A DNA stretch of 27,449 nucleotides from a virus, in the IMG/VR virus record IMGVR_UViG_3300048839_000087, positions 1 through 27,449 of that record; one strand, written 5' to 3'. The translations under genes were made by a program, and so were the position numbers. The number at the start of each line of letters is the position of its first letter. Position 1 is the stretch's first letter. Below the pieces are notes generated by a model. That model was not told where the DNA came from and searched no databases. It saw only the letters and a list, made by a program, of their open reading frames with translations. Positions 6,179 to 25,152 of this stretch are shown one piece after another.

Positions 6179-7098
6179 TACATTCCCCTAAGCAGGAATA
6201 GCCGGGCCGCATCTTCAACAGAGCCTGATTTCTTCAGGCTGGACCGAACGTCCTTGTATTTCTGCTGCGATGCTGCGCCAGGCCCTTTACTGGCCCCAGG
6301 CTTGACGACCGGGGGAGCTTGGTTCGCAGTCTTGACCGCCTGTGGCTTGCTGGATTGCAGCGAGTCCCACTTGGCAGCCTTGTGCACCGCGGCGATGATG
6401 CGCGGATCGGCAAAGCGCTCTTTGAACTCCTTCGGAGTGATCCCGAGCGATTCCACCGTGCGCAGCATGGCCGCATTGTCAGCAGCACTGATCTCGCCGA
6501 TCATCTGGCGCGCACCCTTCTCAGCCGCCTCCCACTGAAACTGGTTATGTTTCTGCGTGGCCTGCTGAACGTGCTGCACCTTCGCATTGATTTCATGCTG
6601 CTTCTGCGTGATCTGCTTTTCAAGATCGCGCATGACTTGCTGGAATCGCAGCGCCTGGCCGGGGTTCGCTTCGTAAAGCGCCGGCCAATCGGCGTCCTGA
6701 TACTGCTTCAGTTGAGATTCAATCGAGCGGAGTTGCGTTACGTCCTCCATCACGGCAGCAGATAGCTGTTCCCGCGCTTCGGCGTATTGGAGTCTGTCGT
6801 GTGCCTGCTTCTGCAACTCGGCGAGTTGCATGGTCTTCTGCGTGTAATCGCGCTGGCGCAATACCGCCTTCTCGACCGCAGCCGGCAGTTTCAGAGTCGT
6901 GCCGTCGTCGGCCTCGAACTCGAAAACGTCTTCCGGGACTTCTTCCGTTTCAACTTCCGTTGTCGGCTCTTCGCTGGCTTCCGGTGCAGATTCCACGGGC
7001 GCCGCTTCAGGCGATTCCGTTTCATCTGCAGCGAATGCAGCAGATAGGCGCGACTCGATAGAGACTTCTGATTCCGCTTGGGGGGTGTCAGTGCTCAT
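6178..7098 (-). CDS. Capsid scaffolding protein
   Basis: A 306-residue protein with a strongly acidic, Glu/Pro-rich N-terminus (residues 1-65), a long helical and coiled-coil Gln-rich middle (about 75-220) and a basic C-terminal tail that ends in a short amphipathic helix (VEDAARLFLLRG). This three-part layout is that of procapsid scaffolds, where the C-terminal helix binds the coat protein. Position directly upstream of, and translationally coupled to, the major capsid gene supports the call. GAGGAAG precedes the ATG. No protease motif is seen, so it is probably a stand-alone scaffold that leaves or is degraded during maturation. Confidence 0.85.
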   Translation of the reverse strand: MSTDTPQAESEVSIESRLSAAFAADETESPEAAPVESAPEASEEPTTEVETEEVPEDVFEFEADDGTTLKLPAAVEKAVLRQRDYTQKTMQLAELQKQAHDRLQYAEAREQLSAAVMEDVTQLRSIESQLKQYQDADWPALYEANPGQALRFQQVMRDLEKQITQKQHEINAKVQHVQQATQKHNQFQWEAAEKGARQMIGEISAADNAAMLRTVESLGITPKEFKERFADPRIIAAVHKAAKWDSLQSSKPQAVKTANQAPPVVKPGASKGPGAASQQKYKDVRSSLKKSGSVEDAARLFLLRGM

Positions 7099-7420: not shown

Positions 7421-8154
7421 AGCAGCATCAAAACGTCTTCGTCGTCTTCTTCGATCTCGCGCTCACGCTGTGCCATGTGCGCCGCAATCTCGATAGCCGA
7501 CAGGGCCGATTGGTATTCGGCGCGAATCTTCCCGATCATCTGATCGGCGTAGCTCTGCAAACTGGGCGACACGGCAACATCTGGAACCGTAAGCGCCTTT
7601 TCAGCGTCCCGAACGATCTTGCGCACCGGCCGGCGCTTGGCCTTGACTGCGCGATCAATGGCGAGCTTCGCTGTTTCTGTGGCCTTCTGAGCCGCTTCGG
7701 CAAGCACCGCTTCGGCTTCTTGCTCCGTTGCGACTTCGATGACCTGGCCGTCGATTTCGACCTGTAGCCGGCGCTTGCGTGGCTTGCGTGATTTGCCGCC
7801 GCCGGCCTGCGCAGCGCCACCAGATGTGCGGAACGCCGCACTGACGACGACATTGGAGTAACTGACAGAGTCATAGACGACGTACCCGAACTCGTAGCTC
7901 TGCCCCGGCGTCAGCCCGCTGGCCGCCACCGCCATGTCCAGCGTGCCCGGCCCGGTGTACTCCTGGCTGCCGTAGCTGCCCGCCGGCAGAGCAGCGCCCG
8001 TGCCGTCCAGGCCCGCGGCGATATAACCGGCGCCCGTGGCGTTGTCTGCCCAGTTCGTGGTGCCCGACGGCTGGACGGCCCAGTACAGGACGACGCTGGA
8101 CCCGCCAGCCTCGCCGTAGCCGGCTGATCCGTAGGAAGCGGTGCCGTAGGTCAT
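7417..8154 (-). CDS. Phage structural protein: Gly/Tyr-rich Fn3-like N-terminus with helical C-terminus
   Basis: A 245-residue protein in two unlike halves. Residues 1-110 are Gly/Ser/Tyr-rich and beta-type, with a fibronectin-III-like strand pattern (GLTPGQSYEFGYVVYD and YSNVVVSAAFRTS). After a Gly-rich and then basic linker (GGGKSRKPRKRR, about 117-128) comes a helical half (about 130-245) ending in a highly acidic stretch. This could be a particle-surface or tail-fibre-like protein fused to an assembly or anchor segment. It follows the tail spike by three bases. A function beyond 'structural' cannot be given. The similarity to the Fn3-like part of the 237-residue gene (10584-11297) is in style, not close sequence. 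Confidence 0.7.
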   Translation of the reverse strand: MTYGTASYGSAGYGEAGGSSVVLYWAVQPSGTTNWADNATGAGYIAAGLDGTGAALPAGSYGSQEYTGPGTLDMAVAASGLTPGQSYEFGYVVYDSVSYSNVVVSAAFRTSGGAAQAGGGKSRKPRKRRLQVEIDGQVIEVATEQEAEAVLAEAAQKATETAKLAIDRAVKAKRRPVRKIVRDAEKALTVPDVAVSPSLQSYADQMIGKIRAEYQSALSAIEIAAHMAQREREIEEDDEDVLMLL

Positions 8155-8157
8155 GGG

Positions 8158-10575
8158 CTAGAAAATCTGCGTCCAAGCGCCGGCAGCCGTCCTGCCGTAC
8201 AGACCCGTGCCGGTTGCGTTGGTGTTCCACACCTGATCGCCAGCCACCGGCACCAACTGCGACGGCGGTGAGCCGGCATTTGCTCCGAGGTCTATTTTCC
8301 AGTCCTTGCCGTCGAGACCGACTTGTATGGTGTCATAAAACAAACAATACTGACCTGTCGGCGCCTTGAGGCCGTTGGCGACAGCGCGGATTACTTGACC
8401 AGCCACATAGAACTGCAGCAGGTTATTCGGAGTAGATACGCATTCAACATTTGACAGAGACAGGTTGAACGTGCCAGTCGCGTCATAGCCAAATGGGCTT
8501 CCCACTGTGGTCAGCCGCATGTTGCTCGCGTAGATGTTATGCGTCAACCCTGCGCTTTGCCCCGTAAACACTGACCTGCAGTTGTATCCGTCAAAGTTTG
8601 TAATGTAGATGGACTTGACGTATCCATCACCAGATTCCGATATCAAATTACCGTTTGATGTCCCATTGGCTGAGTATTTGATATTAGACAACTGCAAAAT
8701 ATCCACAATCCCAGGGTTTGTAAGTATCCAATTAGACAAGTCGCCGGCACTACTAACGGTTCCGCTATTTACTGTTAAACGACCAACATTTGCGCCAACA
8801 AGAATGCCGTAGCGCACTCGCCCTATGGTGGACACCAGTTCACCGATTGTGATTGAGGCAAACGCGCTGCCTATGTTAAGCAGCATGCCTAAATCTGTGC
8901 CAACGCCCCTATCAACAAACCGACCGATATACACCGACCCGGTGGAACTTAGCCCACCATTGCCGAGCTTCATGGCTGTTTCGTCTGTTGCGTACTGCTC
9001 AACCTCGATGGACTCAATGGACAAAGAATTAAAACTTCCGCCTGACACTCCAGCGTCGGCGCCGTCGCCTATGGTAATTGGTCCTCTGCCACGTATGGTG
9101 CCAATGTGAACATCGCCAAGGCTGTAGCCTGACTTGCAATACATCTTGAGCAGCCCTGTCGGGCTTGAACCAATCAGGTTGCCGGCGATCAATGCCCCCA
9201 TGCTGCCTGGACCTGTTGGCGGCGACGTATCTGCAAAAACGCCTTCTGCGCTGGTAACGCCCCACGCCAATAAATCGTCTGCGGCCTGTGGCGCCAAAAT
9301 GGTGCCAACCACGCATCTATCACAGTAGCTGTCGAACTGCACAACAACAGCAACTGACTCACTTGCACGCGCAAGCGGGATGTGAAAATCCGTGGCGTTG
9401 TAAACATTTACGACCCGGCCGCCAGTGCCGTAACGCGAATCAAAAATCGTCCCGTCAAACTTTGAGATGTTGCCCCAATGCGAGAGGTGCACCCCCCATT
9501 GGTTGTACGTCATGTTTGCCACATTACCGTCCATATCCAGGTTTACGGTAATGCACTGATCCCCGAGCACTTGCGCTGTTCCAGTCGCCGTTTCATTCGC
9601 GCCAGTGTTCGCGTATGTCCACGAAACACCTGGGTCAACCCCGACAATTTCCACGACTCCATTAAACGAGTTCGTGCCGCTGAGACCCGCTATCCACAAA
9701 CGATCGCCGCGACCGCGCACATGACCAGATTCCAGCACTGTCACCACATTGGATGCCCGCGTGAAATTTGATCCAGCGATTGGGTAGTACGGGCTGGTGA
9801 ACGCGAGCTGGACAGCGCTGTTCGTAGGGTTCGCGCCGCTGGCCGCATAGGTCCACGATACGCCTGGCACCGTCGCCGTCACGGTTTTCGCGCCGTTCAG
9901 CGTCGTATTTGTCAGCATGCCCTCGACGTATACCTGATCACCGACCTCCCACGGGTGCCCGTAGTCGTTGATCGTGATCTCACCGCCGGACACCGTCGCC
10001 CCGTTCACATAGCACCCGTTCTGCGCGTACTTGTTGCGGATTAAATGAAACTGATTCAGCCCTCCGTATTTCTTGAGGCGCGCTCCAGGCGCCATCCGGA
10101 GTTCTGTGTAGCTTGGAACAAGCAGTGTCTTATTGATGTAGTAGGTTCCGGGGGCAAGGATCTGCACCAACCCGCCGGCATCTAGTTCAGCTTGGATTGC
10201 GGCATGGTTTGCCGTGGCGGCATCTGACGTGTTCGCGGTTGACAGGCCGATCACAATTCCAGTCAGGTAATCCTCCGCACTCGGCACCACGGACACGATG
10301 GCCGCGCTGGTGAAGTCCAACGCCGCATCTGCCGCAGCCGTGCTGCGCACCATCGTGCCACGAGAGAAAGTCGTCGTGCTGTGGGTGTAGGTGCAGTTCC
10401 GCCGAATCTCGGTGCCGACGCCGTTCTCGGTGATGTTCAATTTGAACTTCAGCCCGTCGTCGGCAGCGGCCGGCAGCAGCGAATTGGTGAACGCCGTGTC
10501 CAGTATGAAACTGCCAGTCGTGCCGGGGTCGTTGCTGATCCTGCACTTGATGAGGTCGCGGGCGATGTTTGCCAT
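8158..10575 (-). CDS. Tail spike / receptor-binding protein with pectate-lyase-type beta-helix
   Basis: An 805-residue protein. Residues 1-110 form a likely particle-anchoring domain. Residues about 120-170 (AAIQAELDAGG, LAPGTYYINKTL, APGARLKKY) are the opening of a Pectate_lyase_3-type right-handed beta-helix, common in tail spikes that bind or cut host polysaccharide. A duplicated beta module lies at 198-257 and 276-337 (GDQVYVEGM/GDRLWIAGL ... GVSWTYA). The rest is a long Asn/Gly/Ser-rich beta-helix (to about 720) and a C-terminal domain. It is expected to sit on the virion as a trimer and set host range; catalytic residues cannot be named. It has an AGGAC ribosome site about 5 bp before the ATG. 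AT content is higher in the middle than in the flanking structural genes, which fits horizontal exchange of spike modules. Confidence 0.85.
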   Translation of the reverse strand: MANIARDLIKCRISNDPGTTGSFILDTAFTNSLLPAAADDGLKFKLNITENGVGTEIRRNCTYTHSTTTFSRGTMVRSTAAADAALDFTSAAIVSVVPSAEDYLTGIVIGLSTANTSDAATANHAAIQAELDAGGLVQILAPGTYYINKTLLVPSYTELRMAPGARLKKYGGLNQFHLIRNKYAQNGCYVNGATVSGGEITINDYGHPWEVGDQVYVEGMLTNTTLNGAKTVTATVPGVSWTYAASGANPTNSAVQLAFTSPYYPIAGSNFTRASNVVTVLESGHVRGRGDRLWIAGLSGTNSFNGVVEIVGVDPGVSWTYANTGANETATGTAQVLGDQCITVNLDMDGNVANMTYNQWGVHLSHWGNISKFDGTIFDSRYGTGGRVVNVYNATDFHIPLARASESVAVVVQFDSYCDRCVVGTILAPQAADDLLAWGVTSAEGVFADTSPPTGPGSMGALIAGNLIGSSPTGLLKMYCKSGYSLGDVHIGTIRGRGPITIGDGADAGVSGGSFNSLSIESIEVEQYATDETAMKLGNGGLSSTGSVYIGRFVDRGVGTDLGMLLNIGSAFASITIGELVSTIGRVRYGILVGANVGRLTVNSGTVSSAGDLSNWILTNPGIVDILQLSNIKYSANGTSNGNLISESGDGYVKSIYITNFDGYNCRSVFTGQSAGLTHNIYASNMRLTTVGSPFGYDATGTFNLSLSNVECVSTPNNLLQFYVAGQVIRAVANGLKAPTGQYCLFYDTIQVGLDGKDWKIDLGANAGSPPSQLVPVAGDQVWNTNATGTGLYGRTAAGAWTQIF
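9565..9984 (-). repeat. Internal duplication in the tail spike gene
   Basis: Two diverged copies encode a beta module of about 60 residues: copy A at 9805-9984 (residues 198-257) and copy B at 9565-9750 (residues 276-337). Shared landmarks are G-D-(Q/R)-(V/L)-x-(V/I)-(E/A)-G, an N-G stretch, and GVSWTYA followed by a (S/T)GAN turn. Confidence 0.6.
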
Positions 10576-14412: not shown

Positions 14413-16774
14413 CTTGCCCTCTCATGATTTTGCGCACCTTGGTGCCGCGTTTGACGCCCTGCGCCTTGCCGTCCGGACCGCGCACGATTTCGGCCGGAGA
14501 TTCGTATTCGGCTTTCAGTTCCTGCATCGTCTTGACGATTTCCTCGACGCGGGGGTCTTGCTTGGGTTGCGCCGTTTCCAGCGTCGTTTGGTTGCCCATG
14601 CTGGCTATCTGCAGCTTCACGCTAGCGTCAAGGTCCGCCTTGTAGCGCTCGAATTCCAGCCGCTGCGCCTCTTGCTGTGCTGCGATCAGCGCTTTCTGCT
14701 GCTCTAGCTCGGCTTTCTGTTGCGCCTCAAGCGTCTTCTGCCGCGCGTCCATTTCCTCGCGGTTGCGGTCCAGTTCGGCTTGCATTTGCAGCTTCTGCAT
14801 CTCGATCTGCTGCTGCGCCTGCGCCTTCATGGCGTCCTGCTGCGCGCGGAACTGTTCGATCTGCATCGCAGACTGCGCCTTGATCTGATCCGGGTTCGGC
14901 TGCGGCTGCGGCGGCTGTATTTCCTGCGCCTCGCCCCAGAACTTCGCCGGGTTCGCAAAGCCAGCCAACTTGCTCAACTCGGTCATCGTCGCGTGGATAT
15001 GCTGCGGCTTCGTCAACCCCATCGGCGCCAGCTGCAGTTGAGCGCCAAAGATATTCAGCAGTTGCTGCTGCATGCTCTCTTTGTTGCCGGCACCCACGCC
15101 CACCGAGATACGCACGTCGCGCTTGGTGCGCCAGGCTTGCGGATCGACCGTCACCCACTGCCCACGCAGCTTGACCGTCAAGGGCTTGTTCTGGTGCTTG
15201 CTGATCAACTCATGCACGCACTCAAACAGGTATTCGACGGCCGGCGCCATGACTCGCGCGATGTGCTCGACGCGCATCGCTGCCATGTTCTGCAGCGCCA
15301 TCGTCCCGCTGGCCGTTTTGTTGATGGCGCCAGCGTCGGTGCCGCTGAAATACCGGCTCGCACCGCTTCGGTTCTGCCGCTCCTGATCGAAATATTCGAG
15401 AGAACCGATGATTTCCTGAAACGCGAACGGATGCACGACAGGGACGATGTGCCCCTCACCCGGCATGCTGTCATCCAACATGCGAACCACGCCACCCGGC
15501 CGGCTATCCAGCATGTCGTCCAGACTGACGCGGCTGCTGATCAACGAACGCGGCGAGTTGGCTAGATACAGGTTGTCCAGACCGCCCCGCTTGACGGCGG
15601 TTTTCACGTCCTGAATATCGAGCACAGTCTCTGCGATGCTCATTCCGATATGCCGGTGCGGCATCGGCTGCGGAGTCATGGACGAGACCGGAATGCGTCC
15701 CGTAGGCTCTGCAAACAAGATGGTTCGCCCGACTGCGATCACGTAGTAAAGCCGGCTGACACCATCGTTTTCAGCATCGGCGCGCACCCAGATACTGCGG
15801 CACCAGACACGGCGCATGACGCCCTTTTCGTCGCCCTCGCCCCATCTGTCCTCGCCGAACCGATCACGCGCGTCGTCTTCGTCCGTTTCTTCCTCGTCGT
15901 CCGAGACATCATCGGCCACGTCCAGGCCCATCGCGCGCAGGTCGGCAATGGTTTTCTCCTGCCGAAACTCGAAATACGGACACTGCCGCAGCGTCCAATC
16001 CGGGGTGTCCTGGCTGACGTAGCAGTGCTCTGGCGGCAGGACAGAGATGCAGACCTTTCCCGAGTTTTCGCGCCGCTCGATCACGACATCGTGCAGGAAC
16101 TGCGGCTGCGGCGGCTGCGGTGGTGGCGGCTGCGGTGGCGGCTGCTGGTCCTGCTGCTGCGCCTGCTGTGCGGCTTGCTGCCACTGCGGCATCATCTGCT
16201 GATACTGCTGCTGTGCACGCTGGAACTGCTGCGCCGCGGCTTTGTCGGCCTCTACGTCCGGTTGCTGCGAGTGTTGGACGACCTTGACCTCTTGATCAGC
16301 CAGCAGTTGCGCGATTTGATCGTCGGATTGCCCGGTGTACGTCTCGCGCACCATCGCATCGGACGAATCCCAGTATGCGTATGCGTACCCATTGGCAAGC
16401 AGCATGGCGTCGTGGATCCAATCCCCGACGATCTGCTCCCACGGATTCTGCTGCGTGACGATATGGCTGACGACTCCCGTCGTCTGCTCTGCGGCTAGTT
16501 CGTCATCCGGCCCGCCCGGCGTGAACTTCACGACCTCATCGCTGCTGCCCGCGAAGATACGGACCAGCGATGGCATCAGGGTGGAGATTGTTTCGTAGAC
16601 AGAGCGATCAACGACCTGCGATCTGCCTTCCGGTGCGGGATTGTTGTTGAGCCCGAGATATGCTTCGATGGCCCGAGCGCGTTTTGCGCCTAGATCAGAT
16701 GTTTCATCCGTCCCGTAGCTGTTTTCTCGGCCTTCCTCGATTGCCGCTAGAAGCGCTTCGTTGTCGATGGTCAT
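14387..16774 (-). CDS. Portal protein
   Basis: A 795-residue portal of the P22/SU10-like kind. The N-terminal third carries VVDRSVYETISTLMPSLVRIF and PWEQIVGDWIHDAMLLANGYAY, typical of portals. The middle has AVKRGGLDNLYLANSPR and a long SRYFSGTDAGAINKTASGTM region. The C-terminal third is a Gln- and Ala-rich coiled-coil barrel (about 640-745) ending in a basic tail. Portals form a dodecameric ring for genome packaging and ejection. An unusual Gln/Pro-rich insert (residues 178-225) interrupts the wing region. It lies directly after the large terminase and a small coiled-coil gene, in a normal order for the packaging module. Start: ATG with a GAAAG / AGAAG purine stretch upstream. Confidence 0.92.
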   Translation of the reverse strand: MTIDNEALLAAIEEGRENSYGTDETSDLGAKRARAIEAYLGLNNNPAPEGRSQVVDRSVYETISTLMPSLVRIFAGSSDEVVKFTPGGPDDELAAEQTTGVVSHIVTQQNPWEQIVGDWIHDAMLLANGYAYAYWDSSDAMVRETYTGQSDDQIAQLLADQEVKVVQHSQQPDVEADKAAAQQFQRAQQQYQQMMPQWQQAAQQAQQQDQQPPPQPPPPQPPQPQFLHDVVIERRENSGKVCISVLPPEHCYVSQDTPDWTLRQCPYFEFRQEKTIADLRAMGLDVADDVSDDEEETDEDDARDRFGEDRWGEGDEKGVMRRVWCRSIWVRADAENDGVSRLYYVIAVGRTILFAEPTGRIPVSSMTPQPMPHRHIGMSIAETVLDIQDVKTAVKRGGLDNLYLANSPRSLISSRVSLDDMLDSRPGGVVRMLDDSMPGEGHIVPVVHPFAFQEIIGSLEYFDQERQNRSGASRYFSGTDAGAINKTASGTMALQNMAAMRVEHIARVMAPAVEYLFECVHELISKHQNKPLTVKLRGQWVTVDPQAWRTKRDVRISVGVGAGNKESMQQQLLNIFGAQLQLAPMGLTKPQHIHATMTELSKLAGFANPAKFWGEAQEIQPPQPQPNPDQIKAQSAMQIEQFRAQQDAMKAQAQQQIEMQKLQMQAELDRNREEMDARQKTLEAQQKAELEQQKALIAAQQEAQRLEFERYKADLDASVKLQIASMGNQTTLETAQPKQDPRVEEIVKTMQELKAEYESPAEIVRGPDGKAQGVKRGTKVRKIMRGQDGRAIGLQ

Positions 16775-16898
16775 CTTCTAGGGCTTTCACGCGCTCTTCA
16801 AGCGCAGCGAGGCTCACGTTAACCGATGTCAGCAGCGTCACAAGCGCATCAACTTCGTTAATGGCTTTCTCAATCTGCCGTTCACGGACTATGCCCAT
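16704..16898 (-). CDS. Small coiled-coil protein between terminase and portal
   Basis: A 64-residue frame from the ATG at 16898, with AAGG about 10 bp upstream. It has a regular heptad coiled coil (IEKAINEVDALVTLL ... LAALEERVKALEDD) and a basic tail. It overlaps the start of the portal gene by 71 bp in another frame, so it would be coupled to portal synthesis. No family is recognised. The overlap makes a false frame possible, but the heptads and ribosome site favour a real gene. Confidence 0.55.
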   Translation of the reverse strand: MGIVRERQIEKAINEVDALVTLLTSVNVSLAALEERVKALEDDHRQRSASSGNRGRPRKQLRDG

Positions 16899-16922
16899 AT
16901 TAGCCGACCTTGTTACGTGTGT

Positions 16923-18233
16923 CTATACGATGCCGCGAGTGCTGTAATCGATCTTCTGCAATACCGTTGACCGCGGCGGCTCATACGCCACCGCCATTAG
17001 CCCGAATGCGTCGGCGCCGTGCGAAGCCCAATCATGCTCAGGCCCGAGCCCGATGTTCCTATCTTCGTCGCGCTTTTCGTGATACCAGCCTAGCGCTGAC
17101 AGTCCACCTGAGCACTTGTCCTCGTCAATCCACATGGCCGGGAATAGCCTGCGCACTTCCTCAATTCTCGCCTTAGCCGCGCCCTTGCCCTGATTCGGCA
17201 CCACGGTAACGGCGTATTCCGCCTTCTTCAGCGCTGACTCAAATGACACGTCATAAACTTTGTCGTTTGTCGCGCCGTCATGCGGCAACCAAAACGATGC
17301 CCGGTCTGGTGTATAGCCTTGCGACCGACACCAGGCTAGGTGCGCGTCAAGCGGCTGGCCCTGCGCTTCGTAATAGTTGACGACGCGAATCTCTTTGCCG
17401 ATGAACTGCGCCGCCCAGAGTGCGAACGCGTCAGACTTGGCGCCAGTGCCGCCGATGTCGGCAAAGAGCCTGATCTTGATCAGCGGGTCCGGTGCAACCC
17501 GTCCAATACGCCCATCTGCCCGCGCTGCCGTCAGGTGCTTAGCAAAGTATGCGCCCGTGACGACTGAGATATACCCTCCTTCCCAGATGTGATCGTACTG
17601 TTCCGGGTTGTCTCGCAGGCAATCTAGCCGTTCCTGCTCAAGCACGCCAGTAAACCACGGGTTATCGCGCCAGTTCGCCTTGACGACTATTGAGCCTGTC
17701 GGCGCCTGCGCGCTGCGGAACATCTGATCGACCGGGTCGATCTTGCGCCGCGGGTTCCACGAGAACCATATCTCAGAGCCTTCGGCCCGCAGCGTTGGGC
17801 GCAGTAGCTCAAGGCTCAGGCTTGTCGCCGTCTGCGCCTCTTCCCACCACGCGCGCTTGAAGCCTTCAAGAGACTTGATCGAATCGGCCGTGTAATCGTT
17901 CATGCCCTTGAAGATCATCAGCCCGTCGCCTGGCGTCTGTATCACGTCGCGAAACACCTTGAACCCGTCGGGCTCGCCTAGCTCCAACGCCTTGAGCTTG
18001 GTTTCGATCAGCAGCTTGGACGATTGCGCCAGGTCTTTCTGCACTTCTCGAATGCAGACAGACCGCATGCCCTGGCCGCCAGACTCTCCTGGCTCTGCTA
18101 TGCAGTCCTCGATCAGTTTCTCGGCGAAGAAGTGGCTTTTGCCTGACCCTCGCCCGCCGTGTGCGGCTTTGTAGCGTGATGGCTGGAGTAGCGGAACGAA
18201 TGCCCGCGCTGTCTCAATCTTCAGGTCTCGCAC
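16923..18233 (-). CDS. Terminase large subunit (PBSX-like)
   Basis: A 436-residue packaging motor subunit. Walker A is GGRGSGKS (residues 26-33) and the Walker B-type acidic pair is WWEEAQ (E131/E132). The C-terminal RNase H-like nuclease has D259 in LFADIGG, D268 in AKSDAFALW and D in SHGADAFGLM near residue 410. The protein uses ATP hydrolysis to pump DNA through the portal, and its nuclease cuts the concatemer. It starts at a GTG, overlapping the terminase small subunit by 13 bp. The length is usual for the PBSX/Terminase_3 type. The next gene downstream is the portal, confirming the module. Confidence 0.95.
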   Translation of the reverse strand: MRDLKIETARAFVPLLQPSRYKAAHGGRGSGKSHFFAEKLIEDCIAEPGESGGQGMRSVCIREVQKDLAQSSKLLIETKLKALELGEPDGFKVFRDVIQTPGDGLMIFKGMNDYTADSIKSLEGFKRAWWEEAQTATSLSLELLRPTLRAEGSEIWFSWNPRRKIDPVDQMFRSAQAPTGSIVVKANWRDNPWFTGVLEQERLDCLRDNPEQYDHIWEGGYISVVTGAYFAKHLTAARADGRIGRVAPDPLIKIRLFADIGGTGAKSDAFALWAAQFIGKEIRVVNYYEAQGQPLDAHLAWCRSQGYTPDRASFWLPHDGATNDKVYDVSFESALKKAEYAVTVVPNQGKGAAKARIEEVRRLFPAMWIDEDKCSGGLSALGWYHEKRDEDRNIGLGPEHDWASHGADAFGLMAVAYEPPRSTVLQKIDYSTRGIV

Positions 18234-18550
18234 TTCGGGTCAACGATCAGGCGCTGGATTCGCTGTACCGTAATCGTCGCGTTTGCGTTCACCGTGAGAG
18301 GCAGCAGCTTGGGATAGATGCTGGCCCAGAATGCCCGCTCATTCAACGGGTCTTGCTGCGCCCATGCGATCAGGCGATCCACACCACCTAACCGGCTTGC
18401 GGCTTCGGCTATGACTTCTTTCGCCTCTTTGGGCAGTTTGTTCTGAACACCTTTCGGCCGCCCACCCTCACCGGGCCTAAATTGGCCCTTATTTTTAGGT
18501 TTTAGTTCCGTTTCAGCCATAGCGGTCGAATTATGAACCGATTCGTTCAT
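18221..18550 (-). CDS. Terminase small subunit (probable)
   Basis: A 109-residue protein. It has a disordered basic N-terminal arm (KNKGQFRPGEGGRPKGVQNK, about 20-38) that could contact DNA and a helical region with RLGGVDRLIAWAQQDPLNERAFW (about 53-76). Its position directly before the large terminase, with a 13-bp overlap, and its size fit a small terminase. The GRPKG-arm is also seen in DUF5681-type phage proteins, so family placement is uncertain. The ATG overlaps the preceding stop by 4 bp. Confidence 0.75.
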   Translation of the reverse strand: MNESVHNSTAMAETELKPKNKGQFRPGEGGRPKGVQNKLPKEAKEVIAEAASRLGGVDRLIAWAQQDPLNERAFWASIYPKLLPLTVNANATITVQRIQRLIVDPKCET

Positions 18551-18786
18551 TCTGCAACCTTAATCACCCACCGCGCGCCCATGCCGTGCCCATCGGTGCA
18601 CACCCGGCCGCGTGAATATAGCCCTTTGAGCGCTGCTTTGGCTACAGGCTGGCTCATTTGCAGCAGCGCGCAGACATCGGTGATCGACACCCCGCCGGCT
18701 GGCGTGGTCTGGTGCAACAGTTGCAAAATCTGCAACGCTTGCTCTGATCCTTCCTGACCTGGCGTTAGTAGTCGCTCACTTATCAC
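18547..18786 (-). CDS. Small winged-helix DNA-binding protein
   Basis: A 79-residue protein from a GTG. VSITDVCALLQMSQPVAKAALKGLYSRGRV is a clear helix-turn-helix with a following wing, so DNA binding is likely. It lies upstream of the terminases and downstream of a nuclease-like gene, overlapping it by 11 bp. It may regulate the late leftward transcript or act in packaging; that is inference. Confidence 0.7.
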   Translation of the reverse strand: MISERLLTPGQEGSEQALQILQLLHQTTPAGGVSITDVCALLQMSQPVAKAALKGLYSRGRVCTDGHGMGARWVIKVAE

Positions 18787-19066
18787 GCATCACCTCCAAA
18801 AGTCGCCTTGCGCCTTCCGCATCGGTCACGGTAGCAACCGTGCCGCCTATCCAATCGCGCATGAATGACGTTTGCAGTGCCGTAAACCGGCTTTGCTTGC
18901 GTTTTTTCATCCCGGTCATGGTCTTGCATTCAATGAGCGCTGTTTTTCCGCAGAATCCGCACAAAAGATCGACCGGAAGTCCGATGATGAAGACATAGGC
19001 GCCGCCAGCCCGGAGTGCTGCCACGATTTCGGCCTGCGTGGCATCGACCCGGGCTGCACGTCTCAT
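18776..19066 (-). CDS. PD-(D/E)XK / VRR-NUC-like nuclease
   Basis: Starting at the ATG at 19066, which overlaps the preceding stop as ATGA, the protein has 96 residues. The frame extends upstream, but that part is Arg-rich and poor. GLPVDLLCGFCGKTALIECKTM has the D ... E-x-K core of a PD-(D/E)XK nuclease, and the following basic loop and FMRDWIGGTVATVTDAEGA resemble the tail of VRR-NUC and Holliday-junction-type phage nucleases. It probably processes recombination or packaging intermediates. It is short, so it may act as a dimer. No biochemical role is established here. Confidence 0.72.
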   Translation of the reverse strand: MRRAARVDATQAEIVAALRAGGAYVFIIGLPVDLLCGFCGKTALIECKTMTGMKKRKQSRFTALQTSFMRDWIGGTVATVTDAEGARRLLEVMRDK

Positions 19067-19422
19067 GCCGACGCACTCGCCTGCACGATGCTGTTGATGC
19101 GCCGGGTGCGGTTTTTCTGCCGCAGCCGTTCGCGCCTCGCCGCCTCGCGCTCGGCGTTGCTTTTCGGCGCCCGCGGTGCATCGTCCTTGTCCCCTATCGC
19201 ATAGCTTGCCAGCGACCGTTTTCCGTAGGAGTCCACATCCCATAACTTGACGTGGATCACGCGCGCTTTGCGCAGTGCGTTGACGTACCGCCGGCAGGTG
19301 CACGCGCTCAACCCGGATTCGTGCATCAGGTCTTTGACCGTTGCAGGGCCGTCAAGCAGCGCCCGCATCAGTGCCGCCACCGACAAGTAGTTGATCGTTG
19401 TCGGCCTTCGTTTTCTCGTCAT
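19063..19422 (-). CDS. Winged-helix regulator-like protein
   Basis: A 119-residue protein from the ATG at 19422 (ATGA overlap with the preceding stop). The frame is open to 19470, but this start fits the pattern of the operon. ALMRALLDGPATVKDLMHESGLSACTCRRYVNAL is a helix-turn-helix, then a wing (RVIHVKLWDVDSYGK). A basic C-terminal tail follows (REAARRERLRQKNRTRR). It is likely a DNA- or RNA-binding regulator. Confidence 0.72.
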   Translation of the reverse strand: MTRKRRPTTINYLSVAALMRALLDGPATVKDLMHESGLSACTCRRYVNALRKARVIHVKLWDVDSYGKRSLASYAIGDKDDAPRAPKSNAEREAARRERLRQKNRTRRINSIVQASASA

Positions 19423-19760
19423 CTGGTTCCTCGGTCCATTCCTCGATTGCTTGCTTCCATGCTCCGCCATACCTCCACCGCCGCCTGTGCCGTCACCATG
19501 CGCCAGCGTGCCGCCTCTTCTGCCTCGACTGCCGTCTTGAGCGCGTCCAGGTGCGTTAGGTAACGCGGGTCTGCGTAGGCTTCTCGCTCCTGCGCCACGG
19601 CCGGCAGCGCGGCATGCTCTTTCATCAGGATCGCTTTCAGGCTCTTGCGGTATTCCTCAATCCAGACTCTCTCAGCCCTGGCTTCGGCTAGCAGCGGCCC
19701 CGTCTTGTGCATAGCCTCAAGCGAGGCTTGCGGGTTGAACTCGTTGTAGTAGGCGGGCAT
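19419..19760 (-). CDS. Conserved small phage protein (helical)
   Basis: A 113-residue, strongly helical protein. The C-terminal half (LKTAVEAEEAARWRMVTAQAAVEVWRSMEASNR) is a regular helix typical of a phage protein seen in early or middle gene blocks. Function unknown. The ATG is 22 bp before the attC-like site (19783-19839), which therefore forms its upstream region. No helix-turn-helix or cysteine pairs. Confidence 0.75.
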   Translation of the reverse strand: MPAYYNEFNPQASLEAMHKTGPLLAEARAERVWIEEYRKSLKAILMKEHAALPAVAQEREAYADPRYLTHLDALKTAVEAEEAARWRMVTAQAAVEVWRSMEASNRGMDRGTR

Positions 19761-19782
19761 TGGTGGCGTGCAAAGATGTGAT

Positions 19783-19839
19783 GGCTAACTGTCGGTTCAA
19801 GCGGACGCCGTGCCGGCGCCGCTTAACCTAGCGTTGGGC
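19783..19839 (+). other. attC-like integron recombination site 1 (57 bp)
   Basis: On the plus strand, an R''-like box ending TAAC (19783-19789) is followed by GGTTCAAGCGG (19794-19804), a small inner hairpin CGCCG-TGC-CGGCG (19806-19818), CCGCTTAACC (19819-19828) and GTTGGGC (19833-19839). The R'' box GGCTAAC departs from RYYYAAC at its second base and pairs imperfectly with R'. The arms pair except for one extra C at 19798, the same extrahelical base that integron attC sites carry. The bottom strand is therefore the recombining one. Read directly from sequence; site activity is not shown. Confidence 0.82.
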
Positions 19840-20141
19840 GTCTTCAGGTTCGCCCGCAGTGTTGTCAGCGCGGCCACGATTCCAGCGTCTTGGCCGCGCC
19901 AGTAGCTGCCCGGCTGGCCAGCCGGGTTAAACGGGTCCACCATTTTCCAAGTCAGGCGCATGGCTTCTTCCCAGCGCGCCGTCTCGGCATCCAGCGCAGC
20001 CCGCAACAGCGCGGCTTCAGTTTCGGCCTTCATGGCGCGCTGCAGCGAGTCCACGAACCCGAGTTCCCAATCGCTCAGGCGCTCACTGCGCTTCTCGCAG
20101 TCCTCCAGCAGGGTCACGTACTCGTCATCCCAAGTAGTCAT
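19797..20141 (-). CDS. Small phage-type protein inside the attC-bounded segment
   Basis: A 114-residue, acidic helical protein from the ATG at 20141. GGAGG lies six bases upstream, so this start is preferred over the long poor frame to 20330. MTTWDDEYVTLLEDCEKRSERLSDWELGFVDSL is a helical N-terminus, followed by DAETARWEEAMRLTWKMVD. I do not recognise the family. The last codons are read from the attC-like site 1, and the stop falls in its L'' arm. The start overlaps the 80-residue gene by 17 bp. It sits on the opposite strand to the attC polarity, so it is a reversed cassette gene if the segment is a cassette. Confidence 0.65.
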   Translation of the reverse strand: MTTWDDEYVTLLEDCEKRSERLSDWELGFVDSLQRAMKAETEAALLRAALDAETARWEEAMRLTWKMVDPFNPAGQPGSYWRGQDAGIVAALTTLRANLKTPNARLSGAGTASA

Positions 20142-20367
20142 CTTCATCCTCCGGCCATCCGTGGCACAAACATTCACAGGGGTCTTCCGGGCCATCGCCG
20201 CCGTAGCGGATCCAGGCGCACATGCCGCCGTCGTGGTGCGCGCAGGCGCAGCCGTAGGTGCCACGCGGCCCGCAAGCATTTGTGGCTTCGTCCGGCAGCC
20301 GCCCAACTGACGGTTCAAGCGGAGTACCAACAGCAGTCGGCACCGTGGCGTCTTCAGGCTTGGTCAT
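20125..20367 (-). CDS. Cys-rich small protein starting inside attC-like site 2
   Basis: An 80-residue frame. The first 22 or so residues are coded by the attC-like site itself. The rest (ACGPRGTYGCACAHH, MCAWIRYGG, CECLCHGW) holds seven cysteines and three histidines that could bind a metal, then an acidic C-terminus. No recognised family; similar Cys/His-rich mini-proteins occur in phages. A start further in (for instance the Met of MCAWIRYGG) is possible because the ribosome site before 20367 is weak. Confidence 0.55.
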   Translation of the reverse strand: MTKPEDATVPTAVGTPLEPSVGRLPDEATNACGPRGTYGCACAHHDGGMCAWIRYGGDGPEDPCECLCHGWPEDEDDYLG

Positions 20368-20400
20368 GGCTGTTGGTCCCCGCTTAACCTAGCGTTAGGC
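20301..20400 (+). other. attC-like integron recombination site 2 (100 bp)
   Basis: GCCCAAC (20301-20307), GGTTCAAGCGG (20312-20322), a variable terminal structure with ACCAACAGC (20326-20334) perfectly complementary to GCTGTTGGT (20369-20377), CCGCTTAACC (20380-20389) and GTTAGGC (20394-20400). The two paired arms are identical to those of site 1, including the extra C (20316). Both outer boxes match the consensus RYYYAAC / GTTRRRY. The length is within the normal attC range. Confidence 0.85.
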
Positions 20401-20676
20401 CCTGCGAATACGGGCCGCCACCTCGCGGCACCAGTCTTCCGCTTCTCCGTGCATCGTCGCTGGCATGTCAAACAACTGCGCCAGCCGTTCGCGCTCAGCG
20501 GCTGCGGCGTTGACAAGCGCGTCAGGCCCGTACAGCGGAACGTCGAAGTCTGTGCGGTTCTTTAGCAGGCACTGGCGGTACTGCTCCGCACTCATCAGTT
20601 GGTTTGCACGCCACCCAACGCTTGAAGCCCAGGCTATCGGAATGGCACTCACGTCCTGAGTCGGTGTTTTGCTCAT
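20395..20676 (-). CDS. Small unknown phage-type protein adjacent to attC-like site 2
   Basis: A 93-residue protein with helical segments (SAEQYRQCLLKNRTDF, NAAAAERERLAQLFDMP, EAEDWCREVAARIRRA). No family recognised. Its stop codon is the TTA at 20395-20397 (TAA in the reading strand), inside the R' box of the attC-like site and immediately beyond the expected cut position. A direct repeat GGTTGACAAAA lies just before its ATG. Position and strand suggest a phage operon gene that has become joined to the cassette site. Confidence 0.65.
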   Translation of the reverse strand: MSKTPTQDVSAIPIAWASSVGWRANQLMSAEQYRQCLLKNRTDFDVPLYGPDALVNAAAAERERLAQLFDMPATMHGEAEDWCREVAARIRRA

Positions 20677-20719
20677 TTTGTCAACCTTGGTTTGCGGCTA
20701 TTTCGTCGTTTTGTCAACC
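20676..20719 (-). repeat. Direct repeat GGTTGACAAAA upstream of the small gene
   Basis: TTTTGTCAACC occurs at 20676-20686 and again at 20709-20719 on the plus strand. Read leftward it is GGTTGACAAAA, each with TTGACA. It may hold operators or -35 elements for the 20395-20676 gene; no convincing -10 element follows either copy. Confidence 0.5.
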
Positions 20720-20724
20720 ACAGG

Positions 20725-20748
20725 GCCTAACCCGTCTCATTCGAGCGG
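20725..20748 (+). other. Possible attC half-site (R''/L'' side)
   Basis: GCCTAAC at 20725-20731 matches RYYYAAC and is followed, 7 bp later, by ATTCGAGCGG, an L''-like arm. The partner arm and a GTTRRRY box are not found in the next 250 bp. The 20737-20994 gene stops inside this segment, as the two genes above do in complete sites. It may be a decayed or truncated site, or chance. Confidence 0.35.
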
Positions 20749-20994
20749 CCCAAAGTGTCGCGGCCTGGCAATCGGCCTCGGCAGGTTGCGGTACTGGTGC
20801 GAGTTGAGATACCCGGCGCAAAGCACCGTTCCGCCGCCGTTCGCGTCAAGCGAGAAGTCCGTGCAGCTTCCGCCGTACTGCGGATATGCAGCCTGATACC
20901 GGGCGCAGGTTCCGCGGACCACGCACTGCCCGGACGGCTCGCAGCGGGATACGTCATTCGGTAGCCGGATGGTGTCGGTGCGGTCGTGCGTCAT
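20737..20994 (-). CDS. Cysteine-bearing small phage protein
   Basis: An 85-residue protein from the ATG at 20994, which overlaps the preceding stop (ATGA). An upstream extension to 21078 is less likely. CEPSGQCVVRGTCARY and YGGSCTDFSLD place four cysteines, followed by a GGGTVLCAGYL core. It could be a small zinc-binding or disulfide protein. Function unknown. Confidence 0.65.
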   Translation of the reverse strand: MTHDRTDTIRLPNDVSRCEPSGQCVVRGTCARYQAAYPQYGGSCTDFSLDANGGGTVLCAGYLNSHQYRNLPRPIARPRHFGPLE

Positions 20995-21203: not shown

Positions 21204-21649
21204 GCGAAATCCAGCATTGCGCCTAGAGTGCCTTGCCGTTTTGGCAGATCGGCACCCGCTGGCTTGAGAATTTTCGGAGCATCAGCCCTAGCTCCCACGC
21301 GATGCGCCAGAGACAAGTGCAGCCGATACAGATACATGACTTGCGTTTCAGATTCCTCCGGCACCATGTAAGGCTCGGCCGCTTCCCAAAACTTTGTCGC
21401 GTACTCACGCCACTCGCGGCTAAGTTTGCCGGGCCATATGTCGCAGATGAATCCCGTCAACCAATCATGCTCACGGATTCCGCGCGTGATGCTTTGCCAC
21501 TTCTCGGAGTCTGCCCACGCATGGTGGCTGCACAGAAACCGTGATCCGTCGTGGCTGACTGATCCCGGAAGCGGACAACCATGCGCGATGCACTTCCCGC
21601 TTTGCTTCGGCTCGTCAGGCTCTCGGGTTTGAACGCTTCTGAGACTCAC
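21200..21649 (-). CDS. Phage protein with putative zinc-binding N-terminus
   Basis: A 149-residue protein from a GTG at 21649 with AAGGAG five bases before it. CIAHGCPLPG ... FLCSHHAW near residues 20-44 is a Cys/His cluster that may bind zinc. A helical middle follows (WREYATKFWEAAEPYMV, YLYRLHLSLAHRVGA) and then a basic tail. It is coupled to the replication gene (GTGA overlap). A role in replication or DNA handling is possible. Confidence 0.7.
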   Translation of the reverse strand: MSLRSVQTREPDEPKQSGKCIAHGCPLPGSVSHDGSRFLCSHHAWADSEKWQSITRGIREHDWLTGFICDIWPGKLSREWREYATKFWEAAEPYMVPEESETQVMYLYRLHLSLAHRVGARADAPKILKPAGADLPKRQGTLGAMLDFA

Positions 21650-22461
21650 GCCTGCTCCTTGTGATAGTGGCCTTCGACAACCTTGACAAACTTTTGCGGG
21701 TTGATCAGAAAATCAAAGTCGGCCCGCCAGTTCTTGGCCTTGCCCGTCAGGAATGGAGACTTTGCAGCATGGTCGAAATACCACGCGAACCAACCTAGTC
21801 CCTCGGATCGCGGGTCTTCATTCTTTGCAAACTCAGGCTCTGCAAGAATCTGCTTCCACCTAGCCGACAGCGATCTTTTTCTGCCGTCATTCATGACTTC
21901 GACCCTCGGGAGCATTGGCAGCTTTGCGTGATACATGCCAACGATCTCATCTGTCGGGCATGCCGGGAGTCGTTTTGCCGAGGGCAAGACGACAAGAGGC
22001 GTAGCCTCTAGTTTTGTTGCTTCTGCTTCTGCTTCTGCTTGTGGTAACTTGGTTAACGATTGATCACCGTTAACCACTGGTGTCTGTTCCGCCTTGCGTC
22101 TAGCCCTCAATTCGGCCATTGCAATACGCGACCGCTCACGCCTGGCTTCCTTGCTCTGTGCAGCCCGATACTTGGCGTGGTTGAGAAGCACCCATCCCCC
22201 CTCTGCTTCCGCAATGCGTCGTCCATCATGGTCTTTGGTGCGGCTGTATTCATCAGGAGCTTTGAAGCATTCCAGCGCGGCCACACAGGACTCAAGCGGA
22301 ACCCGAGCCCGAGAAGCAAGGCCAGGAATAGAAGCGCCAACATAACCGTGCTGATCCGCCATTGCAAGCATCGTGATCCACGTCAATCGCGTGTGGTCTG
22401 GTTGGTGCCAGATCGTTGAATCCGTAATGCCAGCGTCCAATTTTGTGAAGAATCCAGCCAT
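21646..22461 (-). CDS. Phage replication-type protein
   Basis: A 271-residue protein from the ATG at 22461 (GAGG six bases upstream; a TTG at 22467 is also in frame). The N-terminal 100 residues read as a winged-helix domain (TWITMLAMADQHGYVGASIPGLASRARVPLESCVAALECF) as in lambda-O-like initiators and DnaC-loader-type phage replication proteins. A charged linker follows, then a C-terminal helical domain with LSARWKQILAEPEFAKNEDP and NWRADFDFLINPQKF. Repeated Glu-Ala in the linker (QAEAEAEA) comes from a simple DNA repeat. An inverted GGTTAACG repeat occurs inside the gene at 22051-22075, as origins do inside initiator genes. Confidence 0.78.
   Translation of the reverse strand: MAGFFTKLDAGITDSTIWHQPDHTRLTWITMLAMADQHGYVGASIPGLASRARVPLESCVAALECFKAPDEYSRTKDHDGRRIAEAEGGWVLLNHAKYRAAQSKEARRERSRIAMAELRARRKAEQTPVVNGDQSLTKLPQAEAEAEATKLEATPLVVLPSAKRLPACPTDEIVGMYHAKLPMLPRVEVMNDGRKRSLSARWKQILAEPEFAKNEDPRSEGLGWFAWYFDHAAKSPFLTGKAKNWRADFDFLINPQKFVKVVEGHYHKEQA
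22051..22075. other. Inverted repeat GGTTAACG / CGTTAACC, putative origin element in the replication gene
   Basis: A perfect 8-bp inverted repeat with 9 bp between arms (ATTGATCAC). The same GGTTAAC core is found in the region before this gene (22472-22485). An initiator protein may bind both; it is not proven. Confidence 0.45.
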
Positions 22462-22471
22462 GCGCAACCTC

Positions 22472-22485
22472 GGTTAACCGTTAAC
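22472..22485. promoter_or_regulatory. Overlapping GTTAAC palindromes before the replication gene
   Basis: GGTTAACCGTTAAC reads as a palindrome (GGTTAACC) joined to another (GTTAAC), 11 bp before the replication gene's ATG. The arms match the inverted repeat inside the gene, so it may be an operator for autoregulation. Confidence 0.45.
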
Positions 22486-22511
22486 ACATGATAGCAGACA
22501 GAGCCTCAGAG

Positions 22512-22733
22512 TCAAGCGGTCCAGCGGGTCGGACGCACGGTCCGAACTGCCCACGTCACGCAGCCGCTGGCGTGCTTGCCTTTGATCAGCTTTTCATCGG
22601 GCCACAGACACTCCGCTACCCGTTTCCACGGCGAGTTGCCCTGCCCGAAGCGCAGCATTTGCGCGTAGGTCATGGGACGGCGCTTAAGCTCTGCAATGAG
22701 GATGCGGCCCTGGGTGACGTAGCGGCGGGTCAT
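22512..22733 (-). CDS. Small winged-helix-like protein
   Basis: A 73-residue basic protein: GRILIAELKRRPMTYAQMLRFGQGNSPWKRVAECL with a following SGCVTWAV strand. A DNA-binding helix-turn-helix with a short wing is likely. The ATG overlaps the preceding stop (ATGA). Function unknown. Confidence 0.65.
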   Translation of the reverse strand: MTRRYVTQGRILIAELKRRPMTYAQMLRFGQGNSPWKRVAECLWPDEKLIKGKHASGCVTWAVRTVRPTRWTA

Positions 22734-22931: not shown

Positions 22932-23615
22932 TCAATGCTTTGGAAATTGAATGCTTGCCAAACCAAGACGACTGGCCTTCGATTCACCTTTGGTGCCAAG
23001 CGGCAGCCAATAGCAGTGTTTGCCTTCGTCGTAGTGTGGTTCAATCGTCCATCCGGGTTTCAACGCCCGCACCTTGTCAGGGCTTTGCGTGCCGAATTGA
23101 TGGTTGCACGCCCGCCCGCCGATCAGGGTTCCGTTCACTACCAGGCCATCCATGCGGCGTTCGCGGCAACCTGCATAGCGCCAGTTCGCGGCCCGGTACA
23201 CGTAACCCTCGTGCCCTTGCGTCTTGTCTGCAAAGCTCACAAGCAAGTCGTGCCCGTGGCGCCTCAGTTCGCGCACGCAACGCGCAAGCAAAAACGTAAG
23301 CGGTGCCCGTTCATCGCCTCGCACGAGTCGCGCCAGTTCAACCACGGTTTCGGCCCATCGTGTCGGCGGGAAAGTCCAAAACGCGGCGGCCACCATCGGG
23401 CCATCGCCACCGAATAGCCCGCCATCTAGGTGCAGGCTGCCCACCATCTGCACATTCGACGGCACGCGCCGGCTGTAGTGGTGGGTTAGTACCATGCCTT
23501 TTGCTTCTTCAAGCCGGCCGGTTCTGAAATGGAGCGCAGAGACAGGTATCGCACCTTCACCTGGCAGGGGGTGCCTGCCCGTGGTTCTACTTTCCACTAT
23601 CTGCGCGTTATTCAT
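22932..23615 (-). CDS. mom: Mom-like DNA adenine modification protein (GNAT fold)
   Basis: A 227-residue protein. Residues 40-52 (GMVLTHHYSRRVP) and 90-130 (VVELARLVRGDE ... LLVSFAD) and especially GHEGYVYRAANWRYAGC (about 134-150) are the landmark blocks of the phage Mu Mom family. Mom modifies adenine at N6 with an acetamido / methylcarbamoyl group and protects phage DNA from restriction. Two histidines and a tyrosine (H45, H46, Y47) are candidates for cofactor binding. The ATG overlaps the end of a small upstream frame. In Mu, mom expression is tightly controlled by Dam, OxyR and Com; no such sites can be claimed here. Homology is inferred from motifs; substrate identity was not tested. 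Confidence 0.8.
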   Translation of the reverse strand: MNNAQIVESRTTGRHPLPGEGAIPVSALHFRTGRLEEAKGMVLTHHYSRRVPSNVQMVGSLHLDGGLFGGDGPMVAAAFWTFPPTRWAETVVELARLVRGDERAPLTFLLARCVRELRRHGHDLLVSFADKTQGHEGYVYRAANWRYAGCRERRMDGLVVNGTLIGGRACNHQFGTQSPDKVRALKPGWTIEPHYDEGKHCYWLPLGTKGESKASRLGLASIQFPKH

Positions 23616-24348: not shown

Positions 24349-24389
24349 CATGTTCAGGCACTGCACATTGACGGTGCCAGGAGTGCAAC

Positions 24390-24620
24390 ATGAATTTCCC
24401 CGGACTCTGCAAGTTGACCTTGACCGAACAGGCCATCTGCCAGGCCATCGAAGGCACGCTGAACGCTGCCCGCAAGGACGGCGAGGATTACGTCCGCGTC
24501 ACTGAGATCAAGCGCGAAGGCTACGGCTACGGCGACTTCGTGTTGACGATCACCACCGACGTTCCGCAGGCCGACGTGGTGACGCTGGCGACCGATGAAC
24601 TCAGCAGGGAGGCAGCATGA
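24390..24620 (+). CDS. Small early phage protein
   Basis: A 76-residue protein that follows the rightward promoter and an AGGAG ribosome site. It begins with a helix (LTEQAICQAIEGTLNAAR) followed by strands (VRVTEIKREGYGYGDFVLTITTD). I do not recognise the family. As the first gene on the rightward transcript it could be an early host-takeover or regulatory protein. Confidence 0.72.
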   Translation: MNFPGLCKLTLTEQAICQAIEGTLNAARKDGEDYVRVTEIKREGYGYGDFVLTITTDVPQADVVTLATDELSREAA

Positions 24621-24838
24621 GCAATCTCCCTTGGCCTATCAAGGCCTACCCGAAGAACCCGCCGCCGCCACTGGCCCGGGCGTTCGATTGGGACGATGCG
24701 CCCGAAGACAAGGACGAACCCGCGCCCGAGCTTGACGACGATTATGAAGTCGGCATCTGCCCGACTTGCAACGGCAGCGGTGAGGGGATGTTCGATGGCT
24801 CTACGTGCCGCGACTGCGGCGGGATGGGTGAGCGATGA
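24617..24838 (+). CDS. Small protein with DnaJ-like CxxC zinc motif
   Basis: A 73-residue protein. Its N-terminal half is Pro/Asp/Glu-rich; the C-terminal part CPTCNGSGEGM ... CRDCGGMGE is a pair of CxxCxGxG repeats, as in the zinc-binding region of DnaJ, which here are likely to bind one zinc. It overlaps the previous stop by 4 bp (ATGA). Partner unknown. Confidence 0.78.
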   Translation: MSNLPWPIKAYPKNPPPPLARAFDWDDAPEDKDEPAPELDDDYEVGICPTCNGSGEGMFDGSTCRDCGGMGER

Positions 24839-25152
24839 GTGGCTTCAACATGCCGCCCGGAGTGTCGGCGCGCGACATCCCAGGTCAAGACAATCCGCGC
24901 GACGACGGCGGGGCGGCGTTCCCGCTGATGCCACCGCAAGACACTGCGGCGGGCATTGCGGTGGGATACCCGTACCCCGAGCCCGGCATGACGCTGCGCG
25001 ACTACTTCGCTGCGCATGCTATGCCGCAGCTGATTGCTGCCATTTGTGCAGGCCAGCACACCACCCCACGCATTGCCTCAACGCCGCAAAAGGGCATTGC
25101 GATTGAAGCCTACATGCTCGCCGACGCCATGCTGAAAGCGAGGGCGCAATGA
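24835..25152 (+). CDS. Phage protein of unknown function
   Basis: A 105-residue protein. The N-terminal half is Gly/Pro-rich and flexible. GMTLRDYFAAHAMPQLIAAI near residue 51 is a helical core that recurs in small phage early proteins. Later EAYMLADAMLKA is another helix. It overlaps both neighbours by 4 bp. Function unknown. Confidence 0.72.
   Translation: MSGFNMPPGVSARDIPGQDNPRDDGGAAFPLMPPQDTAAGIAVGYPYPEPGMTLRDYFAAHAMPQLIAAICAGQHTTPRIASTPQKGIAIEAYMLADAMLKARAQ

Follow-up and report, generated by a model that had tools for sequence, protein, structure and literature searches.

An integrase-less pair of attC sites in a phage operon as a probable part of a widespread phage integron variant with antisense cassette genes

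The window analysed here, i.e. the whole stretch of 27,449 nucleotides of IMG/VR virus record IMGVR_UViG_3300048839_000087, contains two attC sites which delimit a segment with two genes, bordered on one side by a conserved phage gene, termed here the anchor gene, and on the other by the gene of a neighbouring cassette (Table 1). The initial annotation, made from the sequence alone, had proposed that the segment between the two crossovers measures 561 bp and would form one cassette, that the two ORFs within it run against attC polarity and that no integrase is visible; all three statements hold. Neither an integron integrase nor another tyrosine recombinase was found in the 27-kb fragment (no match to TIGR02249 or PF00589), which is incomplete. 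The 80-aa and 114-aa products encoded on the minus strand are without Pfam or PHROG match, and BLAST of the 114-aa protein against named phages gave no match. The 114-aa protein has 85-92% amino-acid identity over most of its length to its nearest viral relatives and its gene reaches a coding score of 0.34 bits per codon; substitutions relative to homologues fall mainly at third codon positions, clearly so for the 114-aa gene, less so for the 80-aa gene. The site inventory of the annotation stands for its two sites, while the truncated left half of a third one (about 20727-20750) had been missed. Compared with left halves of intact phage attC sites, this remnant scores 15.5; the highest score among 200 random 26-mers of the window was 11.0. 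Since the 93-aa gene has kept its own attC only as this left half, the array probably comprised at least three sites in the past. A direct repeat (TTTGCTCATTTTGTCAACC / TTTCGTCGTTTTGTCAACC, 20668-20719), possibly an operator or promoter repeat, occupies the region around the start codon of this gene and immediately 5′ of the gene.

Table 1. Features of the attC array and its borders (window coordinates)
Feature	Position	Strand	Description
Anchor gene	19419..19760	-	113 aa; starts 22 nt past attC 1; conserved phage gene, inner array border
attC site 1	19783..19839	+	57 bp; GGCTAAC left box, GTTGGGC right box; crossover G19833/T19834
Cassette gene 2	19797..20141	-	114 aa, function unknown; final 13 codons read from attC 1
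Gene cassette	19834..20394	+	561 bp between crossovers; replaced by two others in L410; relatives in 8 other viral contigs
Cassette gene 1	20125..20367	-	80 aa, function unknown; ATG within attC 2 loop; conserved in G012, G038, G040, G043
attC site 2	20301..20400	+	100 bp; GCCCAAC left box, GTTAGGC right box; crossover G20394/T20395
93-aa gene of neighbouring (outer) cassette	20395..20676	-	stop codon within attC 2 right box
Third attC remnant	20727..20750	+	left half only, GCCTAACCCGTCTCATTCGAGCGG

Both sites satisfy the description of an attC (RYYYAAC...GTTRRRY with imperfect inner arms), the left box of attC 2 being exact and that of attC 1 one mismatch away. They have in common the inner arms GGTTCAAGCGG / CCGCTTAACC and an extra C in the left arm, i.e. 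the extrahelical base that creates strand asymmetry, so that both also pass the polarity test. Their 21-nt right half occurs at two places only in the window and in none of 100 dinucleotide shuffles. Our own scanner, a structural finder built on RYYYAAC, a bulged inner arm and GTTRRRY, returned attC 1 and attC 2 and nothing else, and gave four matches in total, or 0.04 per window, in 100 dinucleotide-shuffled windows. A covariance model of bacterial attC was then seeded with 30 aligned sites adjoining true integron integrases in bacterial genomes; these seeds were chosen by the same scanner, from bacteria only, and the model nonetheless agrees with it. It scores attC 1 at 44.3 bits (E 5e-9) on the plus strand and 16.8 on the minus strand, and attC 2 at 35.4 bits (E 9e-7) and 12.0, respectively. 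Because the scores are high on one strand and low on the other, they support both the presence of attC and its polarity, and both sites are real attC sites. The boxes, arms, coordinates and polarity-setting C of the initial annotation are thereby confirmed, and a low covariance score, which would have refuted it, did not materialize; the "100-bp variable palindrome" it attributed to attC 2 must be corrected, 100 bp being the length of the entire site. Folding of both sites beats that of shuffled sequences on either strand. Rfam gave no match in the window at the gathering threshold, attC going undetected that way, and BLAST of attC 1 against named plasmids and phages yielded nothing beyond weak partial matches. 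A weak covariance match at 21553-21620 (plus strand, 14.3 bits, E 0.17) may be a decayed attC or chance.

Hairpins acting in transcription or translation could resemble attC by chance, and it is true that the sites lie between genes and that many related sites contain start codons. This reading is already refuted by the covariance scores, with their strand preference, and by the shuffle counts, and finds no support in the related viral contigs either: whole or near-whole viral records (0.82 Mb) carry arrays of up to about 17 attC, when shuffled sequence gives 0-1 matches. We therefore give it practically no weight.

Evidence for movement of the segment comes from a viral contig, L410, whose anchor-gene protein has 99% amino-acid identity to that of the window. 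Its nucleotide match to the window extends over 15186-19826 at 90% and over 20392-20750 at 99.2%, and between these flanks it holds three attC sites and two different cassettes, of 465 and 691 bp. At the outer border, the sense strands are identical as far as ...GCAGGGCCTAAC/GC, which takes them through the attC 2 crossover and over two further bases common to both sites, so that the homology break reads GCCTAAC/GC on the sense strand. At the inner border the break is located within attC 1, whose left arm GGCTAACTGTCGGTTCAAGC is common to window and L410 and whose right half differs, and this break is not an IntI crossover. The initial annotation had admitted that related phages carrying the same sequence without cassette-like boundary variation would count against it; such variation is seen in L410, with one break at the attC 2 crossover. 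Its inference that the segment was gained, or can be exchanged, by integron recombination is accordingly supported as regards the swap between L410 and the window, which is observed, the catalysis by IntI being inferred. Such mosaic attC sites are seen at the inner border (L410 3749-3805 compared with window 19783-19839) and also at window 20323: the left arm is common, and the VTS and right half differ between close relatives, which an IntI crossover does not explain.

Relatives of the window cassette are present in eight other viral contigs (G012 and G038-G044), with unrelated neighbours in most pairs compared and with a VTS that differs between the window and the other carriers. In G040, homology to the window cassette begins exactly at 19833, the G of the attC 1 right box, and G005 shares the anchor-side flank with the window up to its own attC. 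Among 80 terminase relatives of the window there were only two weak attC-like matches, and 80 anchor-gene relatives had attC matches at three loci only, L410 being the clear one; the array is thus not constant within this phage lineage.

Extending the comparison beyond these relatives, the exact 21-mer of the right half was recovered from seven viral contigs and was absent from 84,980 bacterial and archaeal species genomes (257 Gb). The left arm pattern occurs in 28 viral contigs, mostly in an attC-like setting; of the 41 genome contigs that also have it, few are attC-like. The window sites belong to a phage-associated attC family. Identical cassettes are found in different contigs: a stretch of 515 bp is 100% identical between G014 5983-6498 and G020 24350-24865, where the neighbours on either side are unrelated, and 318 bp are likewise 100% identical between G009 22391-22709 and G006 7970-8288. 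When 108 cassette proteins were compared with PHROGs, single members matched a DNA methyltransferase, Mom-like or MazG-like families, and most were unmatched. Could the window sites simply be fossils, left by a single capture of a cassette pair from a bacterial integron, inert since then and kept only by virtue of their location in an operon? The lack of an integrase in the fragment and the truncation of the third attC would fit, but the near relative L410 has different cassettes at the same place, the distribution of the 21-mer does not point to bacteria and, as described below, the genes are oriented opposite to those of bacterial cassettes. We hold this to be very improbable.

A further question is which process moves the cassettes. 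Mosaic sites, with breaks within an arm, require something other than IntI, such as homologous recombination between attC arms, and count against a reading in which IntI does everything. Exchange might even depend altogether on phage homologous recombination (annealing of the Sak4/Erf type), with attC repeats as mere short islands of homology and hairpins that are leaders or attenuators rather than IntI substrates; G043 does encode a Sak4-like annealing protein, and an RBS and start codon in or just past the hairpin would suit such a role. However, the breaks concentrate at the crossover point: ends of BLAST matches of at least 200 bp coincided with G/TT in 54 cases, whereas jittered positions gave an expectation of 5.9 and a maximum of 15 in 500. 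Since many sequences carry recently shared cassettes, these counts are not fully independent. Moreover, even very divergent sites retain the GTTRRRY core and the extra base specific to one strand, and intact IntI genes stand at the expected end of many arrays (see below). Homologous recombination as the sole agent is consequently considered unlikely, and we favour IntI recombination at G/TT as the process that placed the window cassette.

The antisense orientation of the two ORFs, which the initial annotation had treated as a weak point, has proved to be the way in which phage cassettes are generally built. Gene strand was assigned from codon-usage scores, third-position substitutions and RBS. 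Across 37 viral contigs, codon usage places 114 inter-attC segments out of 117 antisense to attC and none same-sense, with three undecided; the same score applied to 20 bacterial integron regions gave 29 same-sense, 3 antisense and 23 undecided segments. As some cassettes occur in more than one contig, the viral counts are not all independent. Antisense genes are the rule in phage cassettes. An RBS, start codon and frame were recognized on the sense strand at 107 viral attC, and the start lies within a long attC in 30 of them and past the attC end, mostly by 20-30 nt, in the other 77. Because starts sit in or past the viral attC, the site appears as a 5′ leader in phages and as a 3′ tail in bacteria. 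A measure based on the strand of the longest ORF (55 antisense and 22 same-sense in the attC set, 25 and 10 in the IntI set) is weak in these GC-rich genomes, for which reason the three other lines of evidence were adopted. Antisense cassettes were also seen in two contigs from bacterial bins, L116 (Rubrivivax MAG) and L118 (Burkholderiales MAG), possibly phage or prophage contigs.

As to the integrase, a profile scan revealed 224 IntI relatives in viral contigs, of which the best 80 were retained. Among these, the catalytic residues R, K, H, R, H and Y are intact in 79 of 79 viral IntIs, and ten that were tested against TIGR02249 scored 408-477 bits, far above the cut-off. The covariance model, applied to 65 viral IntI loci from the same best 80, found attC in 44. 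At loci from this set, 133 of 142 attC are found on the strand opposite to intI and 5′ of that gene, which is the canonical intI-attI-attC geometry, and cassette genes beside intI are antisense to attC in 78 cases, same-sense in 5 and undecided in 10, reading toward and with intI. In viral contigs, the gene nearest to intI on its 5′ side is codirectional rather than divergent by 50:1, versus 22 divergent and 9 codirectional in bacteria, and perfect LexA boxes precede intI in 2 of 66 viral and 16 of 54 bacterial cases. In a FastTree phylogeny, 61 IntIs from viral contigs form one clade (support 99) that contains none of the 64 bacterial IntIs sampled, the latter being drawn mainly from one family and one class. 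A minority group (L282, L287 and L307) has attC of plus polarity 3′ of intI, and the virus Rctr41k is similar.

The IntI contigs sampled are phages. PHROG comparison of large ORFs gave structural phage genes in three of them: L315 and L321 have tail genes, and in L253, terminase, attC array, intI, portal and head protease all run in one direction. Terminase, connector and tail genes are also present in G043. Few terminases were recovered when IntI contigs were searched with two Pfam models for this protein. In L315, L321 and L273 a tyrosine recombinase of the PHROG integrase category lies directly 3′ of the integron integrase. Among 36 attC-bearing records, only G043 has an IntI above the cut-off, 76% identical to a Burkholderiales IntI, and relatives of this IntI and of the attC arms are the only grounds on which Burkholderiales-like hosts are inferred. 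The missing integrase, the other weak point named in the initial annotation, remains missing from the window, yet plausible donors exist in many viral contigs and in many of the Burkholderiales-type family genomes sampled. As IMG/VR contigs are fragments, absence of intI from any single one is weak evidence.

Taken by usual definitions, the window carries a CALIN (crossovers 561 bp apart, both attC on the plus strand, no intI in the fragment) and not a complete integron, being without intI and attI in an incomplete 27-kb fragment. Its segment qualifies as a gene cassette, with G/TT borders and movement as a unit, but imperfectly, the inner L410 junction being a mosaic attC. It does not qualify as a cassette of bacterial type (gene same-sense, attC at its 3′ end): the genes are antisense and attC is at the 5′ end. 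We regard it as highly probable that the window holds a two-site integrase-less array in the early operon of a podovirus-like phage, that IntI inserted its 561-bp cassette and is able to exchange it at G/TT, and that the gene/attC layout is mirrored relative to bacteria. This array would be part of a widespread phage integron variant, recombination being inferred.

With less assurance, although we lean toward it, we propose that tailed phages own an integron system, with a dedicated IntI lineage, a separate pool of reversed-polarity cassettes exchanged between phages during infection, intI expressed together with the cassette operon and the attC hairpin used as a 5′ leader. The mechanism belongs to the reading held highly probable above: IntI would recombine folded attC bottom strands at G/TT and thus swap cassettes in phage early operons; for the window, it is inferred that the enzyme would be supplied by the host, by another phage that is resident or co-infects, or by that portion of the genome which the fragment lacks. 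Each gene has attC at its 5′ end as a leader, with RBS and start codon inside or just past the site, and ends at the next attC. Since the sites of an array share polarity, genes antisense to them all read one way, toward attI and intI, and by this mirrored relation all cassettes read in one direction as a phage operon. The intI gene, where present, is read with them, beside a presumed attI whose function is likewise inferred. Expression would come from an upstream phage promoter, also an inference, that drives the operon and intI with it and makes a Pc of bacterial type unnecessary, and the promoter-distal end would be the point of entry for new cassettes. The attC bottom strand would be the non-template strand of transcription, which might, as a speculation, aid its folding.

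Integrons and attC sites in phages are not new as such. In a survey of 10,705 phage genomes, Qi et al. 2023 (PMC9892861) identified integrons as well as 17 CALINs, with attC arrays lacking an integrase in lytic and temperate phages, and found that five of six phage attC tested recombined with attI1 by IntI1. That paper describes captured bacterial integrons and CALINs, and neither a phage IntI clade nor a reversed cassette design. One of its records, MW202573, has attC on the minus and genes on the plus strand in our analysis, an antisense layout that the accessible text does not mention; by our check, two of its cases, TJE1 and Shewanella M16-3, have the bacterial, same-sense gene orientation. 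Neither a phage IntI clade nor reversed cassettes turned up in our literature search, which left preprints and most subscription journals outside its scope; within that scope, these two features are unreported.

The phage system resembles sedentary chromosomal integrons of bacteria in its IntI family (TIGR02249), attC structure, cassette size and attC pointing away from intI (78 of 79 bacterial sites, i.e. 78:1). In the bacterial integrons, however, genes are same-sense with attC and intI is usually divergent and often controlled by LexA, whereas in phages they are antisense to attC and intI runs in their direction. In 'reverse' integrons, e.g. that of Treponema denticola, intI is co-directional with the cassettes as well, intI being flipped relative to a normal array; in the phage system, it is the genes that are flipped, while intI and attC keep their canonical geometry. 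The virus Rctr41k (KX853513) has an IntI-like gene (47% identity to the IntI of G043) with attC-like sites nearby, but these lie 3′ of intI and its genes are same-sense.

Most swapping of accessory genes in mosaic phage genomes has been attributed to illegitimate or homologous recombination. What is seen here is apparently a site-specific system for exchange of single genes among phages, with identifiable borders and an integrase, which makes the movement of counter-defence and modification genes between phages testable. Reversed polarity would keep phage cassettes apart from those of bacteria, because an incoming bacterial cassette would read backwards, and it bears on the origin of integron cassettes and on why bacterial genes and attC are co-oriented.

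Two genes outside the array may be mentioned separately. A Mom-family DNA modification protein, an anti-restriction phage gene product, is encoded near the array at 22932-23615 on the minus strand (Pfam Mom, E 4e-20), and a radical SAM protein with a SPASM domain is encoded in this phage contig at 603-1544, also on the minus strand.
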